From Aquabacterium sp. (lineage in GTDB: Bacteria; Pseudomonadota; Gammaproteobacteria; Burkholderiales; Burkholderiaceae_C), in contig NZ_JACRAH010000037.1 in NCBI RefSeq assembly GCF_016234775.1, positions 1-64,000 of the forward strand: 64,000 nucleotides of DNA, read 5' to 3'. Every line of letters begins with the position of its first letter. The stretch's first letter is position 1. Positions 53,406-60,204 of this stretch are shown here, one piece after another. The notes below the pieces were generated by a model. It worked only from the letters and a program-made list of their open reading frames with translations, made no database searches and was not told where the DNA came from. Both the position numbers and the translations under genes were made by a program.

Positions 53406-55286
53406 ATGTCCCTCACGTTCGCGAAATTGCTCGCCACCACACCCAATCCCGCTAGCTCAAAAGCGCCTGTCCCTGGGCGACACAAGTCGACGGCACGCTG
53501 GCTGAACGTCGCCATGCTGGCGTTGAGCACCGTGAGTGCCGCGCAGGCAGCAGAGAATGACAACAAGGCACCAGCCACCAACGCGGCAACCACACCCGCT
53601 ACGGCAAGCAATGCCAAACCGCCCGTCCAGAACTCCCCCATGGACGCGCCCATGTTCTACCAGATCTTCCTGGCGGAGATGCTGGTCAACAACGGCGACC
53701 TGAATTCGGCCTATCAGCACTACCTGGAAGCCGCCAAGCAGCACAAGAACGGGCAGCTTTACCAACGCGCAGTGGAAGTCGCATTTCGCGCCCGCTCGCC
53801 AGAACTGGCCTTGACCGCCGCGAAAGCCTGGCGACAAGCTCAGCCGCAATCCAGGCAGGCGTCGGAATACACCGCAGAAATCCTGCTGGCCATGAACCGC
53901 TCGGCCGACCTGGCTGCACCATTGCGCAGCATCATTCAGTTGACGCCAACGCCCCAGCAGCCGCAATGGATTCTGTCCTTGCCACGCACCATGACGCGCC
54001 TGCAGGACAAGACCGCCGCGGCCCAGGTCATCGATGACGCCACGCAACCCTGGCGCCAGGCTCCTCTGGAGTTGGCAGAAGCCTGGTCCGCCAGCGCCGA
54101 GGGCTGGATGCATGCGCGCGACACCAACAAGGCCATGAACGCCTTGAACAAAGCCCTCGCGCTCAAGCCTCAACTGCTCAATGCGGGGCTCATCGCCATC
54201 GACCTCATGGACGCCAGCCCCCAGGCAGAAGCCGTCGTCAAACAACAACTGGCTCGCAGCGATGTGGCACCTGTGGTTCGTCTGGCGTACGGCCGCAAAC
54301 TGGCTGGATCACAGCGCTATGAAGAAGCCGCGCAACAACTGGAGCAGTTGCTGAAGGAGCACCCCGAGCAAACGGGCTCGTGGATCACACTGGCCGCCGT
54401 TCGCCTGGAACTCAAGCAGATCGATCAGGCAGAAGCTGCCCTGAAAACCCTGCTGAGCAAGGTCAAAAACGAGGGTCAGCCCGAGACGGCGCCCCCAGGC
54501 AGCCGCTCACCTGACGCCAACGAGGTTGATCAGGCTTATCTGCTGATGGCGCAGATCGCGGAACAACGCAATGACATCGCTCAGTCCCTGTCCTGGCTGG
54601 ATCGCGCCGATCCCAAGCACGAGCGAGTGAACATCCAGGGCCAACGCGCCCGCCTGCTGGTTCGCCAGGGCAAGATCCCGGAGGCCAGAAAGCTGATTCG
54701 CGACTTGCCGGAGGCGGAACCAAGGGATGCCGTCTTGAAGTACCAGGCGGAAGCCCAGTTGCTTCGCGATGCCCGTCAGGTGGAAGAAGCCTACAAGGTC
54801 ATGGCTGAAGCCACACTACGTTTCCCTGACGACAGTGATCTGCTGTATGACCAGGCCATGCTGGGTGAAAAGCTGCAGAAATACAGCGAAGCCGAAGCGC
54901 TGCTGCGCAAAGCCATCACGCTGGCACCAGACAACCCCAATGCCTTCAATGCACTGGGCTACAGCCTCGCTGATCGAGGCATTCGACTCGATGAAGCCCG
55001 CGTATTGATCAAAAAGGCGCTGGAGCTGCGCCCTGCTGACCCGTTCATCATCGACAGCCTGGGATGGCTGGAGTTCAAGGCAGGCAACCTCTCGGAAGCC
55101 GCTCGCCTGCTGAGCAGCGCCTATCAGACTCGCCCGGACCCCGAAATCGCAGCCCACCTGGGTGAAGTGCTGTGGACGCAAGGCAAAAAAGATGAGGCCA
55201 GCAAGGTGTGGCAAGACGCCCACAAGCGCGAACCCGACAACGACACGCTCAAAGAAACCTTGAAACGCCTTCAGGTCAAGCTGTGA
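53406..55286 (+). CDS. periplasmic TPR-repeat protein
   Basis: A 626-residue exported protein. The signal-like segment is 'WLNVAMLALSTVSAAQA' (about 34-50). The remainder is tetratricopeptide repeats, e.g. 'GQLYQRAVEVAFRARSPELA', 'AMNALNKALALKPQLLNA' and the C-terminal 'AEALLRKAITLAPDNPNAF' and 'DPFIIDSLGWLEFKAGNLS'. Such proteins next to lolB in Burkholderiales are thought to assist outer-membrane assembly; this is inference. ATG 53406 has GGAG upstream; 53361 and 53382 are weaker. Confidence 0.82.
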   Translation: MSLTFAKLLATTPNPASSKAPVPGRHKSTARWLNVAMLALSTVSAAQAAENDNKAPATNAATTPATASNAKPPVQNSPMDAPMFYQIFLAEMLVNNGDLNSAYQHYLEAAKQHKNGQLYQRAVEVAFRARSPELALTAAKAWRQAQPQSRQASEYTAEILLAMNRSADLAAPLRSIIQLTPTPQQPQWILSLPRTMTRLQDKTAAAQVIDDATQPWRQAPLELAEAWSASAEGWMHARDTNKAMNALNKALALKPQLLNAGLIAIDLMDASPQAEAVVKQQLARSDVAPVVRLAYGRKLAGSQRYEEAAQQLEQLLKEHPEQTGSWITLAAVRLELKQIDQAEAALKTLLSKVKNEGQPETAPPGSRSPDANEVDQAYLLMAQIAEQRNDIAQSLSWLDRADPKHERVNIQGQRARLLVRQGKIPEARKLIRDLPEAEPRDAVLKYQAEAQLLRDARQVEEAYKVMAEATLRFPDDSDLLYDQAMLGEKLQKYSEAEALLRKAITLAPDNPNAFNALGYSLADRGIRLDEARVLIKKALELRPADPFIIDSLGWLEFKAGNLSEAARLLSSAYQTRPDPEIAAHLGEVLWTQGKKDEASKVWQDAHKREPDNDTLKETLKRLQVKL

Positions 55287-55942
55287 GCACAAGCCACTGG
55301 AGCCGCCTGTATGCCTGCGTCGCGCTGCTGCCGCTGTGCTTGAGCGCGTGCAGCAGCCTGCCCGATGCAGACCCGATCGCGGCACAGATGCGAAGCGGCG
55401 GAGCCTGTGCACCGGCTGACACGAACACATCGGCACCGACCGTTCTGCAGCAGTTGACGCCGACGTTCCCGCGTGCAGTCGCACGCCCCAAACTGGACCT
55501 GCAAGGCCAGATGAGCATCAAGCTGGCAGCCTTTGCCGACCAATCCGCCAAAGGCTTGAGTCTGGGCTTTTTCTTCTCGGGCAACACAGAATCAGGTCAG
55601 CTGGATCTGATGACACTGATGGGCAGCCAGATGGCGCAGATCAACTGGCAACAGGGCGAAGCCTGGTTAAGCAATGACAAAGGGCGAACACGATATGACA
55701 GCCTGGAGGCGCTCAGTGAAGCCGCACTGGGTGAGCAACTGCCTCTGCGACCCTTGATCCAGTGGATGCAAGGCCAGCCGGATCCTGACCTGCCCAGCTT
55801 GCCCGGCCCTGACGCCAACACCTTCATTCAGGAAGGCTGGCTGATCGACACCAACGAACTCTCTGAAAAGAAACTGAACGCACGCCGCGCAGCCACGCCA
55901 GCACAACGCGCTGTTCAACTCAAGATCTACCTGGATCGCTGA
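55283..55942 (+). CDS. lolB: outer-membrane lipoprotein LolB
   Basis: A 219-residue lipoprotein receptor that takes lipoproteins from LolA and inserts them in the outer membrane. The signal 'LLPLCLSACSSL' gives the lipidated Cys, and the beta-sheet body has 'QGQMSIKLAAFA', 'GLSLGFFFSGNTESGQLDLM' and 'PLRPLIQWMQGQPDPD'. The GTG start at 55283 overlaps the TPR stop. Its place between the TPR gene and ispE matches the conserved lolB-ispE order of beta- and gammaproteobacteria. Confidence 0.85.
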   Translation: MSTSHWSRLYACVALLPLCLSACSSLPDADPIAAQMRSGGACAPADTNTSAPTVLQQLTPTFPRAVARPKLDLQGQMSIKLAAFADQSAKGLSLGFFFSGNTESGQLDLMTLMGSQMAQINWQQGEAWLSNDKGRTRYDSLEALSEAALGEQLPLRPLIQWMQGQPDPDLPSLPGPDANTFIQEGWLIDTNELSEKKLNARRAATPAQRAVQLKIYLDR

Positions 55943-55956
55943 GCCCCATACAAGAC

Positions 55957-56853
55957 ATGCCTAGCCTGCACAATCTGCCCGCGCCGGCCAAGATCAATCT
56001 CTTCTTGCACATAACGGGTCGCCGCCCCGATGGCTACCACTTGCTGCAATCCGTCTTCATGCTGATCGACTGGCAAGACACATTGCACATCGAGACACGC
56101 AGTGATGGCCATTTGCGTCGCCACGATCTGAACGTCGCACTGCCTCAGGATGACCTGTGCCTGAAGGCCGCCCGCTTGCTTCAAGCCGAAAGCGGCACAT
56201 CACAAGGCTGTGACATCCACATTCACAAGGACGTACCCTGGGGCGCCGGCCTGGGCGGCGGCAGCTCGGACGCCGCCACGGTCTTGCTTGCACTCAATCA
56301 ACTCTGGGCCCTGAACTGGCCCCGCGCAAGACTGGAAGCCCTGGCCATCAAGCTCGGCGCCGATGTGCCCTTCTTCGTGCGTGGGCGCAACGCCTGGGTA
56401 GAAGGCATTGGCGAGGCCATCACCCCGATCTCGCTGCCAACAGCGGCGCTAAACACCCCACTGGCCCTGCTCAAGCCCCCCATCGCTGTTCCGACTGTGG
56501 CGATTTTTGGCAGTCCCGTTTTACAGCGCGACACAAAGCATGCTATAGTCACAGACTTTCTTGCAGCGCCCCAGCGCTTTGGCAGAAACGACTTGCAAGC
56601 TCCCGCAGAGCAGTACAGTAATCAGTACGGCAGTCAGATCAGCCAGGCACTGGAGATCATGCAGAAACGCTTCGGCAACAGCCGGATGACGGGATCAGGC
56701 AGCACCGTGTTTTCGTGGATTCCCACCAGCACACAGCAAGCCCCCAGCTTCCAGCCAGCTGATGTGAATCTGGATGATCACGCATGGGTCGGTCGTGTTG
56801 CTCACGGTCTGGTTCACCATCCACTGCTTGATTTGCTGAAGCCCATTGATTGA
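55957..56853 (+). CDS. ispE: 4-diphosphocytidyl-2-C-methyl-D-erythritol kinase
   Basis: A 298-residue GHMP kinase of the non-mevalonate isoprenoid pathway. 'APAKINLFLHITGRRPDGYH' at the start, the GHMP loop 'VPWGAGLGGGSSDAATVLLA', 'LGADVPFFVRGRNAWVEG' and 'SRMTGSGSTVFSWI' are diagnostic. ATG 55957 follows lolB by 14 bases. It is the last protein gene before the promoter of the tRNA-Gln-prs unit. Confidence 0.94.
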   Translation: MPSLHNLPAPAKINLFLHITGRRPDGYHLLQSVFMLIDWQDTLHIETRSDGHLRRHDLNVALPQDDLCLKAARLLQAESGTSQGCDIHIHKDVPWGAGLGGGSSDAATVLLALNQLWALNWPRARLEALAIKLGADVPFFVRGRNAWVEGIGEAITPISLPTAALNTPLALLKPPIAVPTVAIFGSPVLQRDTKHAIVTDFLAAPQRFGRNDLQAPAEQYSNQYGSQISQALEIMQKRFGNSRMTGSGSTVFSWIPTSTQQAPSFQPADVNLDDHAWVGRVAHGLVHHPLLDLLKPID

Positions 56854-56895
56854 TGGTGCAGCAAAATCAAAATGTGAAGATTTTGAACAACAGAC

Positions 56896-56923
56896 TTGAA
56901 TGACGCAAAAAACAGGCTATAAT
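56896..56923 (+). promoter_or_regulatory. sigma-70 promoter of tRNA-Gln and probably prs
   Basis: TTGAAT (56896-56901) and a perfect TATAAT (56918-56923) are separated by 16 bases, with an AT-rich stretch between. The start would lie near 56930, about 75 bases before the tRNA. No other promoter is seen before prs. Confidence 0.75.
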
Positions 56924-57003
56924 GCGAGGCTCTGAACAAGAGTGCAGCTTACAAGGTTGCAGTGAGTTGAAGTAGCAATACAGCAGCGCACTGCGTCCTG
57001 AGT

Positions 57004-57080
57004 AGGGGAATCGCCAAGTTGGTTAAGGCATCGGATTTTGATTCCGACATACGAGGGTTCGAATCCTTCTTCCCCTGCCA
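57004..57080 (+). tRNA. tRNA-Gln (anticodon TTG)
   Basis: A 77-base cloverleaf. Acceptor arm AGGGGAA (57004-57010) pairs with TTCCCCT (57070-57076), followed by encoded GCCA. The anticodon stem TCGGA/TCCGA holds loop TTTTGAT with anticodon TTG (57038-57040), reading CAA. The T-arm has the conserved GGTTCGAATCC. Its place before prs is conserved in Burkholderiales. Confidence 0.97.
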
Positions 57081-57088
57081 AATAATTC

Positions 57089-57107
57089 GTTCAGTTCAAA
57101 GCTGAAC
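57089..57107 (+). terminator. 6-bp hairpin just after tRNA-Gln
   Basis: GTTCAG (57089-57094) and CTGAAC (57102-57107) form a perfect stem with a 7-base loop, nine bases after the tRNA CCA. It may guide 3' processing or partial termination; there is no U-tract. Confidence 0.35.
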
Positions 57108-57110
57108 ACT

Positions 57111-57177
57111 CACCTGCCCTACACCTTCCGCGAAGGCTTATTCACCTGAACACTCAGGTGCTCCCGAGGGCAAGGTG
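57111..57177 (+). promoter_or_regulatory. candidate structured RNA leader of prs (three-way junction)
   Basis: P1 pairs CACCTGCCCT (57111-57120) with AGGGC-A-AGGTG (57167-57177): 10 bp with one bulged A. Inside it, P2 is CCTTC-CGC-GAAGG (57124-57136) and P3 is CACCTGA-ACAC-TCAGGTG (57143-57160). CACCTG of P1 could instead pair with the 3' side of P3 (57155-57160), giving a mutually exclusive fold. prs starts 42 bases downstream without a clear Shine-Dalgarno. I recognise no known riboswitch. Confidence 0.5.
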
Positions 57178-57218
57178 ATGGGCGCGTGCTATTTTCGCCA
57201 TCAGCCCAGACGCCAATC

Positions 57219-58181
57219 ATGCTATCCGATACCGTTCTGTTCACCGGCAACGCCAACCCGGCGCTCGCTCAGGAAATCGCCTCCAATCTGGGCATCTCTC
57301 TGGGCAAGGCGGCCGTCGGTCGCTTCTCGGATGGCGAAACCACGGTTGAAATCCAGCAGAACGTTCGCGGGCGCGAAGTGTTCGTGGTGCAGTCCACCTG
57401 CGCCCCCACCAATGACAACCTGATGGAACTGCTGGTCATGGTCGACGCGCTCAAGCGTGCTTCGGCCCAGCGCATCACGGCCGTCATCCCCTACTTCGGT
57501 TACGCCCGTCAAGATCGCCGCCCACGCTCTACCCGTGTGCCCATCTCGGCGCGCGTTGTGGCTGATCTGCTGGAAACCGTCGGCGTCGAACGTGTCCTGA
57601 CCATGGACCTCCACGCCGACCAGATCCAGGGCTTCTTCCGTATCCCAGTCGACAACATCTACGCTTCGCCCGTGTTGCTGTCCGACCTGCAAGCCAAAAA
57701 CTATCAAGACCTCGTGGTCGTGTCGCCTGACGTGGGCGGCGTGGTGCGCGCCCGTGCGCTGGCCAAGCAACTCGGTTGCGATCTGGCCATCATCGACAAG
57801 CGTCGCCCCAAGGCCAACGTTTCCGAAGTGATGCACGTGATCGGCGAAATCGACGGCCGCAACTGCGTGATCATGGACGACATGATCGACACCGCAGGCA
57901 CGCTGGTCAAAGCGGCTGAAGTGCTCAAGGAGCGTGGCGCCAAGAGCGTGTACGCCTACTGTACGCATTCGGTGTTCTCCGGCCCAGCCATCGAACGCAT
58001 CAAGAATTCGCATCTCGACGAAGTCGTGATCACCAACACCATTCCGCTCAACGACAGCGCGAAGGGCACGCCCAAGATTCGGCAGCTCTCGACCGCTTTC
58101 CTGTTTGCGGAAACCATTCGCCGTATCACCGATGGTGAGTCGGTGACGTCCCTCTTCTCGGAACAGAACAACAACTTCTGA
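57219..58181 (+). CDS. prs: ribose-phosphate pyrophosphokinase
   Basis: A 320-residue class I PRPP synthase. Marks are '[20 protein letters not shown]', '[20 protein letters not shown]', '[13 protein letters not shown]' and the PRPP loop '[20 protein letters not shown]'. PRPP feeds nucleotide synthesis and the nadC reaction. ATG 57219 gives the family N-terminus; an in-frame GTG at 57186 would add an unlikely extension. No Shine-Dalgarno precedes it, and the leader is structured. Confidence 0.95.
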
Positions 58182-58268
58182 TCCGTGTTCTCGACCGGCA
58201 AGCTGCAAGGCAAGCCGGTCTTTTCACAGCACCTGGTCGCGGGTGCTTTATCCACTTTGGAGTTATCC

Positions 58269-58892
58269 ATGAAATTCACAGCTTTTGAGCGCAGCCTGCA
58301 GGGGACCGGAGCGAGCCGCCGCCTGCGCGGCGCTGGCAAGACCCCCGGCATCGTGTACGGTGCTGGTGCCGCCCCCCAGAACATCGAACTCGACCACAAC
58401 GCGCTGTACCATGCCATGCGCAAGGAAGCCTTCCATTCGTCCGTGCTCGACATGGAACTGAACGGCAAGGTCGAGAAGGTTCTGCTGCGCGACTACCAGG
58501 CTCACCCCTACAAGGCCCTGGTCCTGCACGTTGACTTCCAACGCGTTGACGCCACCACCCGCATCCACAAGAAGGTGCCCGTGCACTTCGTGGGCGAGGC
58601 CGATGCGCCTGCAGTCAAGCTTGACAAGTGCATCATCAACCACGTCACCACCGAATTGGAAATCGAGTGCCTGGCTGAACAGCTGCCTGAATTCCTGACT
58701 TGCGACCTGAGCAAGGCCGTCAAGGGTCAGAGCTTCGGCGTGGACGACCTGGGCCTGGCTGCCCACATCAAGGTGCTGACGCACGGCCGCAAGGCTCCTA
58801 CATTGGCTACCGTTGTCGAGCCCGTGGAAGAAGTCATCGCCGCACCTGTGGCTGCTGCCGAACCAGCCAAGGGCAAGAAGGGCAAGAAGTAA
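58269..58892 (+). CDS. rplY: 50S ribosomal protein L25 (CTC type)
   Basis: A 207-residue long-form L25 that binds 5S rRNA. The N-terminal L25 domain has '[20 protein letters not shown]' and '[20 protein letters not shown]'; the C-terminal CTC beta domain follows, ending in an Ala/Lys tail '[11 protein letters not shown]'. TTGGAG lies 6 bases before ATG 58269. It follows prs and precedes pth, with a rho-independent terminator between. Confidence 0.94.
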
Positions 58893-58921
58893 TCACTTCT
58901 TCCTTTGCGCTTTTGCAAGTC

Positions 58922-58951
58922 AAGCCCCGCTCAAGCGGGGCTTTTCTTTTT
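58922..58951 (+). terminator. rho-independent terminator after rplY
   Basis: AAGCCCCGC (58922-58930), loop TCAA, GCGGGGCTT (58935-58943), then TTCTTTTT (58944-58951). A textbook stem plus U-tract, 29 bases after the rplY stop, so pth has its own promoter; GATAAT at 58966-58971 is a candidate -10. Confidence 0.9.
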
Positions 58952-58982
58952 GTGGATGCCACTCCGATAATCCGCACCCATC

Positions 58983-59645
58983 ATGATTCGACTGTTTGTG
59001 GGACTGGGCAACCCTGGCCCGGAATACGAAGACACCCGGCACAACGCCGGGTTCTGGTTCATTGACGATCTGGCGCGCCGATTTGGCGTGTCACTCCAGC
59101 CTGACCGCGCCTATCACGGCCTGGTTGCCCGAGCCAACCTGCCGCAAGGCCCCGTGTGGCTGCTGCAACCGCAGACCTATATGAACCTGTCTGGCAAATC
59201 GGTGGGTGCGCTGGCGCGCTTCTTCAAGATCACGCCAGAAGAAGTCCTGGTGGTTCACGACGAACTCGATTTACTGCCTGGCCAGGTCAAGCTGAAGAAA
59301 AGCGGCAGCCATGGTGGCCACAACGGCCTGCGCGATATCCACGCTCAACTGGGCACACCGGATTACTGGCGACTGCGCCTGGGAATCGGGCATCCTGGCC
59401 TCAAACACGAGGTGGCCAACTACGTGCTGCGCAAACCACCGCAGTCGGAGCGAGAAGCCATCTTCAAGTGCATCGGTCAGTCCCTTGACGCCGTGGACGC
59501 CATGCTCGCTGGCGACATGTCGAAAGCCGTGACGATCGTGCACGCGCAGCCGCAACGACCCAAGCCACCACGCAAGGAAGCGCCCGACAAGCCGACGATA
59601 CCCGTCAAACCTGACGCGGCTTCGGGCAACAACGAAGCGGGTTGA
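58983..59645 (+). CDS. pth: peptidyl-tRNA hydrolase
   Basis: A 220-residue enzyme that recycles peptidyl-tRNAs dropped from ribosomes. Marks are '[20 protein letters not shown]' with the catalytic His, '[20 protein letters not shown]', '[20 protein letters not shown]' and '[12 protein letters not shown]'. The C-terminal 25 residues are a Lys/Pro-rich extension. The rplY terminator upstream separates it from prs. Confidence 0.95.
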
Positions 59646-59691
59646 TACAGGCGCGCACAGACGCCTGAACCCAACAAAACAAGGAGGAAAA

Positions 59692-60204
59692 ATGACACAC
59701 CGCGAAGGCAACGGCTCGCGCCAGCATCCACATCGACTGGCGCGCTTGCTCTGCCTGCCTGTGATCATGGCGCTGCTGCACACCGGCCCGGCACAAGCAA
59801 CGCCAGATCGCGCTGCCCAGACCACCCAGACCTGGCGCTGCACGGCACCATCAGGCCAGGTCAGCTACAGCCAGCAACCGTGCGCAGCGAATGGTGATCT
59901 GGTGACGCTGAAGGACGCTCGAACCCGTGGTCAGCAACGTCAGGCCACCAACAACACCGAGCGGGATGCCAAACTGGCCCGGCAAATGCAGCGTGAACGC
60001 CGGCACCAGGAGCGCATGGCCGGTAAAAACCGGGCCATCAGCCTGTCAGGCAAAGGTGGCCCTCACGTTATCCAAAGCACACCGAACAATCACGACCCCG
60101 TGCCGATCAGTGAGATGACCAAGCCGATTCGCATCAAGCCAAAGAAAATGGCTGCATCGGCGCCAATGCAGACGCCGCCCGGCAGCATCCCTCTGGCGCG
60201 TTGA
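59692..60204 (+). CDS. exported DUF4124-like protein
   Basis: A 170-residue protein. Signal-like 'RLLCLPVIMALLHTGPAQA' is followed by 'TWRCTAPSGQVSYSQQPC' (about 43-60), which matches the DUF4124 start (W/Y-K/R-C-x4-G-x-V-x-Y-S-x2-P-C). A Gln/Arg-rich helix and a basic disordered tail follow. AAGGAGG lies 4 bases before ATG. The domain occurs in many betaproteobacterial envelope proteins of unknown role. Confidence 0.65.
   Translation: MTHREGNGSRQHPHRLARLLCLPVIMALLHTGPAQATPDRAAQTTQTWRCTAPSGQVSYSQQPCAANGDLVTLKDARTRGQQRQATNNTERDAKLARQMQRERRHQERMAGKNRAISLSGKGGPHVIQSTPNNHDPVPISEMTKPIRIKPKKMAASAPMQTPPGSIPLAR

Follow-up and report, generated by a model that had tools for sequence, protein, structure and literature searches.

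The prs leader of Aquabacterium sp. is, judged from its sequence, a bistable RNA that is conserved within one genus, and we give a probability of roughly 0.5 to the reading of it as a transcription attenuator between tRNA-Gln and prs. In the stretch of DNA analysed here (the window, 64,000 nucleotides), one strand of the leader, X, can pair with either of two strands that follow it, Y in fold A and Z in fold B. The computed part of this reading consists of both pairings, their conservation, the compatible changes between clades, and the order A-B-A that the folds take at equilibrium as the transcript lengthens.

Genes in this part of the window are arranged in the order ispE, tRNA-Gln(TTG), prs, rplY, where the names ispE, prs and rplY are those we presume from the protein sequences. 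The tRNA (57004..57080, plus strand, anticodon TTG) was called by ARAGORN and by Rfam model RF00005. The open reading frame at 57219..58181 (plus strand, ATG at 57219) is taken to be prs, encoding ribose-phosphate pyrophosphokinase (PRPP synthase), a name that rests on our knowledge of the family; its protein is 71-95% identical to those of 80 relatives. Of 80 Burkholderiales loci, 77 have tRNA-Gln upstream of prs, and the remaining three comprise one tRNA called as tRNA-His and two loci with no tRNA in the available stretch. No Shine-Dalgarno sequence is visible by eye directly upstream of the ATG at 57219, in agreement with an earlier note on this DNA. The interval 57186-57218 holds a GTG in frame with prs, from which a protein longer by 11 codons could start. 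An ATG is common at the corresponding position in relatives, but just 10 of 32, the window among them, keep the frame.

The earlier note had also described, in the prs leader, a closing stem with one bulged A around two hairpins. This structure, at 57110-57177, proved to be the minimum-free-energy fold of 57105-57185, with -31.5 kcal/mol compared to -21.7 (sd 3.0) for dinucleotide shuffles, 3 of 200 of which were as good (z -3.34). In this arrangement (fold A, all features on the plus strand), X (CACCTGCCC, 57111..57119, invariant in clade a) forms the 5' strand of the closing stem P1, and Y (GGGCAAGGTG, 57168..57177, defined from the alignment) forms its 3' strand. The bulge is the variable base after GGGC in Y, and it is the only base of P1 that varies in clade a. 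Folds and alignment place hairpin P2 at 57122..57136 (57124-57128 paired with 57132-57136), and the alignment places P3 at 57143..57160, its sequence variable and its helix mostly retained. A further hairpin, P0 (57089..57107, from leader folds and alignment), lies 3' of the tRNA and is variable in sequence among relatives. The conserved element extends beyond 57177, where the earlier note had ended it, through Z, a T-rich stretch and the hairpin P4, to 57207. Z (57180..57188), a near-repeat of Y, reads GGGCGCGTG in the window and GGGCAGATG in most of clade a, and its partner is either X in fold B or the 3' side of P4 (CATCaGCCC, 57199..57207, from leader folds). The T-rich stretch, CTATTTT (57189..57195), lies 3' of the fold B hairpin and falls within the loop of P4 in fold A. 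In the window, it is GCCC of the P4 3' side that pairs with GGGC of Z; the match of CATC is poor, and the helix includes two non-standard pairs. A promoter TGCTATTTT inside P4 was considered and rejected, as it is absent from clade c.

Fold B draws on the likeness of Y and Z, with either of which X is able to pair. The X:Z pairing gives a GC-rich hairpin followed by the T-rich stretch, with a long loop unlike that of a textbook terminator, and the 5' part of P2 (CACCTT, 57122-57127) is able to pair in this fold with AAGGTG of Y. That two exclusive folds exist had been suggested before, with CACCTG of P3 as the alternative strand; two partners for one strand stand, in the form of X with Y or Z, but the role given to P3 does not, as the repeat is present in the window and the P3 sequence is not kept among relatives. 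A dual pairing that scores -11 or better and has a T-rich tail was found in 18 of the 32 leaders with X, Y and Z versus 3.1% of 320 shuffles, in 2 of 6 genus leaders without this layout versus 5.0% of shuffles, and in 3 of 76 leaders outside the genus versus 2.0% of shuffles. For single leaders it is moderately rare, being reached by 1, 0 and 4 of 60 shuffles of G000, G011 and G012, respectively.

To follow the element across the genus, we used a collection of 42 genomes of the window's genus, from which 38 tRNA-prs leaders were read (G006, G035, G039 and G041 were left out). The X-Y-Z layout, recognized by its Y-Z pair, is present in 32 of these 38. A covariance model built from 17 clade a leaders matched 23 of the 42 genomes, 22 of them beside prs; the G006 match sits at the edge of a contig, which would truncate prs, and G019 has one extra match, a minus-strand shadow. 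The idea of a trans-acting or repeated element was rejected because 22 of the 23 model-matched genomes have the match beside prs. Of 399 genomes of the family (141 genera), the model matched 3, all from the window's genus, and a DNA search of the same 399 matched 2, the window's own genome and one genus mate. Since the model misses clades c and d, and also at least 3 genus mates among the 399 genomes, these searches bound close relatives only, and a diverged form may exist elsewhere. In 78 prs loci from outside the genus, no leader matched the model; its only two hits there were weak (E 0.12 and 0.57) and within prs. The tRNA-prs interval differs widely in length and sequence among Burkholderiales loci, and no common motif was seen outside the genus in the intervals read by eye, about 70 of 76 leaders. 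For window positions 54000-60000, an Rfam search at E up to 1 returned the tRNA and three weak matches, none of them in the leader; in the loci of 20 relatives, searched at E up to 0.5, the matches were likewise the tRNA and weak ones outside the leader. The proposal of a structured RNA in the prs leader is upheld, for an element that lacks an Rfam match and is kept within the genus.

Which fold is the more stable tends to change with transcript length. When the RNA stops past the T-rich stretch, fold B is favored in 25 of 32 leaders (mean 3.9, sd 3.9 kcal/mol); with the full leader and 33 nt more, fold A is favored in 24 of 32. In the window itself, the folds are level at the short length (-33.2 and -33.5), and fold A is ahead at the long one (-52.6 vs -49.4). 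Partition functions of the growing chain, calculated at equilibrium and not kinetically like all folding here, gave X:Y a probability above 0.5 before Z in all 32 leaders, X:Z above 0.5 when Z had newly emerged in 31, and X:Y above 0.5 again around the start codon in 30, where the best of three lengths was taken for the second and third steps. The complete order X:Y, X:Z, X:Y occurs in 29 of 32; G018 fails to reach fold B, and G023 and G036 fail to return to fold A. Finer steps, taken for 16 genomes, agree on the A-B-A order, but G018 hardly shows X:Z, and in G001, G010, G018, G019 and G022 the X:Y probability is once more under 0.5 at the last length, which reaches about 40 nt into prs.

The six core pairs of X:Z are retained in 32, 32, 32, 31, 29 and 28 of the 32 leaders, and the outer pair is CG in 18, TA in 7, TG in 3 and unpaired in 4. 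At this outer place X has U in the nine leaders of clades c and d, in all of which the opposing base of Z is A or G. In a tree of the 38 genomes, built from prs and the DNA 3' of it, clade c joins clade b (100/99) and clade d joins G028 (100/100), with weak deepest forks; because the tree sets clades c and d apart, the U form of X probably arose twice. X:Z within a clade is only slightly better than between clades, except in clade d (-16.1 vs -12.4), and X:Y of clades d and e is weaker with their own Y than with the Y of other clades. Within clade a, 95.5% of cells are paired in fold B versus 31-46% when the strands are slid, and X:Z has no double changes.

For fold A, an alignment of 16 distinct clade a rows (A4), which was fitted to the covariance model and hence leans towards it, gave 93.0% of cells paired versus 87.6% after shuffling (0/500) and a covariation score of 0.180 versus 0.093 (0/500). 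Double-change pairs, at 7 versus 5.1 in shuffles (23/500), do not stand out strongly, nor do further pair types stand out, at 15 versus 15.3 (346/500); these are the two of five measures compared with shuffles that lack a strong excess. Changes on both sides occur in 6 of 7 pairs of P3, where 78.4% of cells are paired, and double changes in 1 of 4 pairs of P4; P1 and P2 have none in clade a, both being invariant except for the P1 bulge. Such invariance next to a variable P3 is as expected for strands with two partners. P1 varies compatibly between clades. Of the compensatory changes that the earlier note had asked for in P1 to P3, those in P3 are seen, and within clade a P1 and P2 show none. 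Over the 32 leaders P4 appears as GATG/CATC (20), GACG/CGTC (5), GATG/CGTC (4) and GTGC/GCAC (1), the exceptions in this 4-mer scan being the window (G000), with no match, and G003, with a poor one.

The sequence after Z is rich in T. In the 8 nt after Z the T fraction is 0.57, compared with 0.212 for the 32 leaders as a whole. A run of 4 or more T lies near Z in 19 leaders and one of 2-3 in the other 13 (clade d, clade e and six members of clade a). A simple scanner limited to loops of 3-8 found no plus-strand terminator in 56800-58400. A separate scan for terminator-like hairpins, which covered the six genus leaders without X-Y-Z and those outside the genus, found strong hairpins in G002, G004, G008 and G014, a weak one in G021 and none in G028, and outside the genus hairpins in 22 of 76 leaders versus 10 of 76 on the other strand and a mean of 3.3 in mononucleotide shuffles. 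In G002, G004 and G008 (L087, L095 and L091) the element is replaced by a single terminator-like hairpin, GCCGCCC...GGGCGGC, then ATTGGTTTTTT.

As a working mechanism, we infer one transcript for tRNA-Gln and prs, termination in fold B, a regulated choice between the folds and, through it, altered prs output. Transcription would start upstream of tRNA-Gln, where a pattern scan found a sigma-70-type promoter-like site, TTGAAT-16-TATAAT (56896..56923, plus strand), that may drive tRNA-Gln and, via read-through, prs. Promoter-like sites number 2 in 1601 bases versus 0.5 +/- 0.7 in shuffles, and 29 of 37 genus genomes have TTGNNN-(15-18)-TANNNT, counted without a chance control, in the 125 nt that precede tRNA-Gln. 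There is little room for a separate prs promoter downstream of Z, and prs seems dependent on read-through because only 23 bases lie between the T-rich stretch and the ATG. Taken with the T enrichment after Z and the terminator-like hairpins of other leaders, these points favor attenuation of a tRNA-Gln-prs transcript but fall short of proof, as 13 of 32 leaders have poor T-runs and P4 beside the start codon would suit translational control too. In the growing leader X would first pair with Y, and P2 and P3 would complete fold A; once Z has been made, X would move to Z and the 5' arm of P2 to Y. The resulting fold B, a GC-rich hairpin beside a T-rich stretch, is terminator-like and would release RNA polymerase, and those polymerases that get past would make the 3' side of P4, which would capture Z, return X to Y and leave prs to be transcribed. 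Neither an aptamer nor a peptide is in sight, which leaves the speed of the polymerase, a protein or a second RNA as possible triggers. A more specific version, which we consider decidedly speculative, is a three-step co-transcriptional relay (X:Y, X:Z, then X:Y with P4) that, with neither aptamer nor leader peptide, would couple expression of tRNA-Gln and PRPP synthase through polymerase speed and thus nucleotide supply.

Alternatively, the folds could set translation of prs rather than its transcription, a reading that we find unlikely. In one variant, the GCCC able to close P4 lies beside the start codon and may hinder ribosomes; in another, P4 may bring the Shine-Dalgarno-like AAGGTG of Y near the AUG, with X:Y masking it. 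The last GCCC does end 0, 3 or 6 nt before the ATG in 30 of 32 leaders (11 and 15 nt in the other two), P4 varies compatibly, and the window has no Shine-Dalgarno nearby. AAGGTG is paired in both folds, however, and its counterparts in clade c (AAGTG) and clade b (mostly CGGT) are weak Shine-Dalgarno matches; many prs starts outside the genus, among the intervals read by eye, also lack a clear one, and the T enrichment after Z would be superfluous. Nor do we favor a leaky terminator, pause or processing element that would fix the ratio of tRNA-Gln to prs mRNA without sensing anything, an explanation we regard as similarly doubtful. Such an element would be in keeping with the terminator-like hairpins that G002, G004, G008 and G014 have in this position, the weaker one of G021 and those in 22 of 76 leaders outside the genus, and with the weak T-runs in 13 of 32; yet a fixed terminator needs neither Y nor P4, and X-Y-Z is kept in 32 of 38 leaders.

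That the leader might be a riboswitch or an attenuator had been raised in the earlier note, and it is the attenuator that fits best. A ligand riboswitch for PRPP or a nucleotide, with P1-P2-P3 as its aptamer, is very improbable even with its three-way junction, a P2 that is invariant in clade a and a fitting gene context, because the leader has no Rfam match, the second partner of P2 accounts for its invariance, and the clades have no common aptamer core: the region from X to Y has a common sequence in clade a only, and clades b-e share no core with it. Judged by eye, X, Y, Z and P4 are common to clades a-e, and P2 is conserved in clade a only. Least credible of all is attenuation by a leader peptide read from the ATG in Z. 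Z does hold ATG or GTG in 26 of 32 leaders, behind AAGGTG-like sequence, but six leaders have ACG, and of the 26 starts 10 are in the prs frame, 10 run out of frame into prs, 4 stop before it and 2 overlap its start, so that the Z frames of the 32 leaders have no common peptide or frame. Open reading frames of at least 8 codons that start before X are present in 20 of 32 leaders.

The trp, pyr and similar leaders are transcription attenuators with a terminator and an antiterminator. The prs leader resembles them in having one strand with two exclusive partners, one of which gives a hairpin followed by T-rich DNA, and in its position upstream of a biosynthetic gene. In contrast to them, it has no common leader peptide at Z and no known sensor, it lies behind a tRNA in the same presumed transcript, and its third hairpin, P4, favors return to the first pairing. 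By its predicted folds, the element would work like a terminator/antiterminator attenuator. With T-boxes it shares a nearby tRNA and attenuation logic but it has no Rfam match, and T-box-like pairing with the tRNA end, considered by eye, was rejected. The ykkC-related PRPP riboswitch (PMC6031431) shares the tie to PRPP biology; it differs in that the prs leader gave no Rfam match, either in the window (E up to 1) or in the loci of 20 relatives (E up to 0.5). A survey of premature terminators (PMC2965389) deals with the same broad kind of element, and its main text contains neither 'prs' nor 'PRPP'; the main text of PMC4603805 does not contain 'prs'. The Burkholderiales-1 motif (PMC2864571) is a candidate structured RNA of the same order for which the table there gives no Rfam accession, and the prs leader, compared by description and not by sequence, may be this motif. 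Our literature search, which left subscription papers mostly outside, found no RNA-level control of prs in Burkholderiales.

Two hairpins lie downstream of prs. One, GACCGGC...GCCGGTC followed by TTTT (58193-58224), is terminator-like, and similar hairpins follow prs in many genus mates. The other, GCACCTGGTCGCGGGTGC (58229-58246), lies between prs and rplY (ATG at 58269), which we take to be the gene for ribosomal protein bL25. The other 37 of 38 genus genomes have GCGCCTGGTCGCGGGCGC here, a G-C pair having compatibly become A-T in the window. Of 78 loci outside the genus, 68 have CTGGTCGCG, with differing stems, no more than about 220 nt downstream of prs. This hairpin, which has no Rfam match in the window, is a candidate bL25 leader; an L25 leader has been reported for Enterobacteria (PMC7247131).

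PRPP feeds the synthesis of purines, pyrimidines, histidine, tryptophan and NAD, and the element between tRNA-Gln and prs may set the amount of PRPP synthase. If the attenuator reading is true, a tRNA and a central metabolic gene would lie on a single transcript that carries its own genus-specific gate, and the 32 variants found in nature would serve as ready test pieces for how such gates work and evolve.
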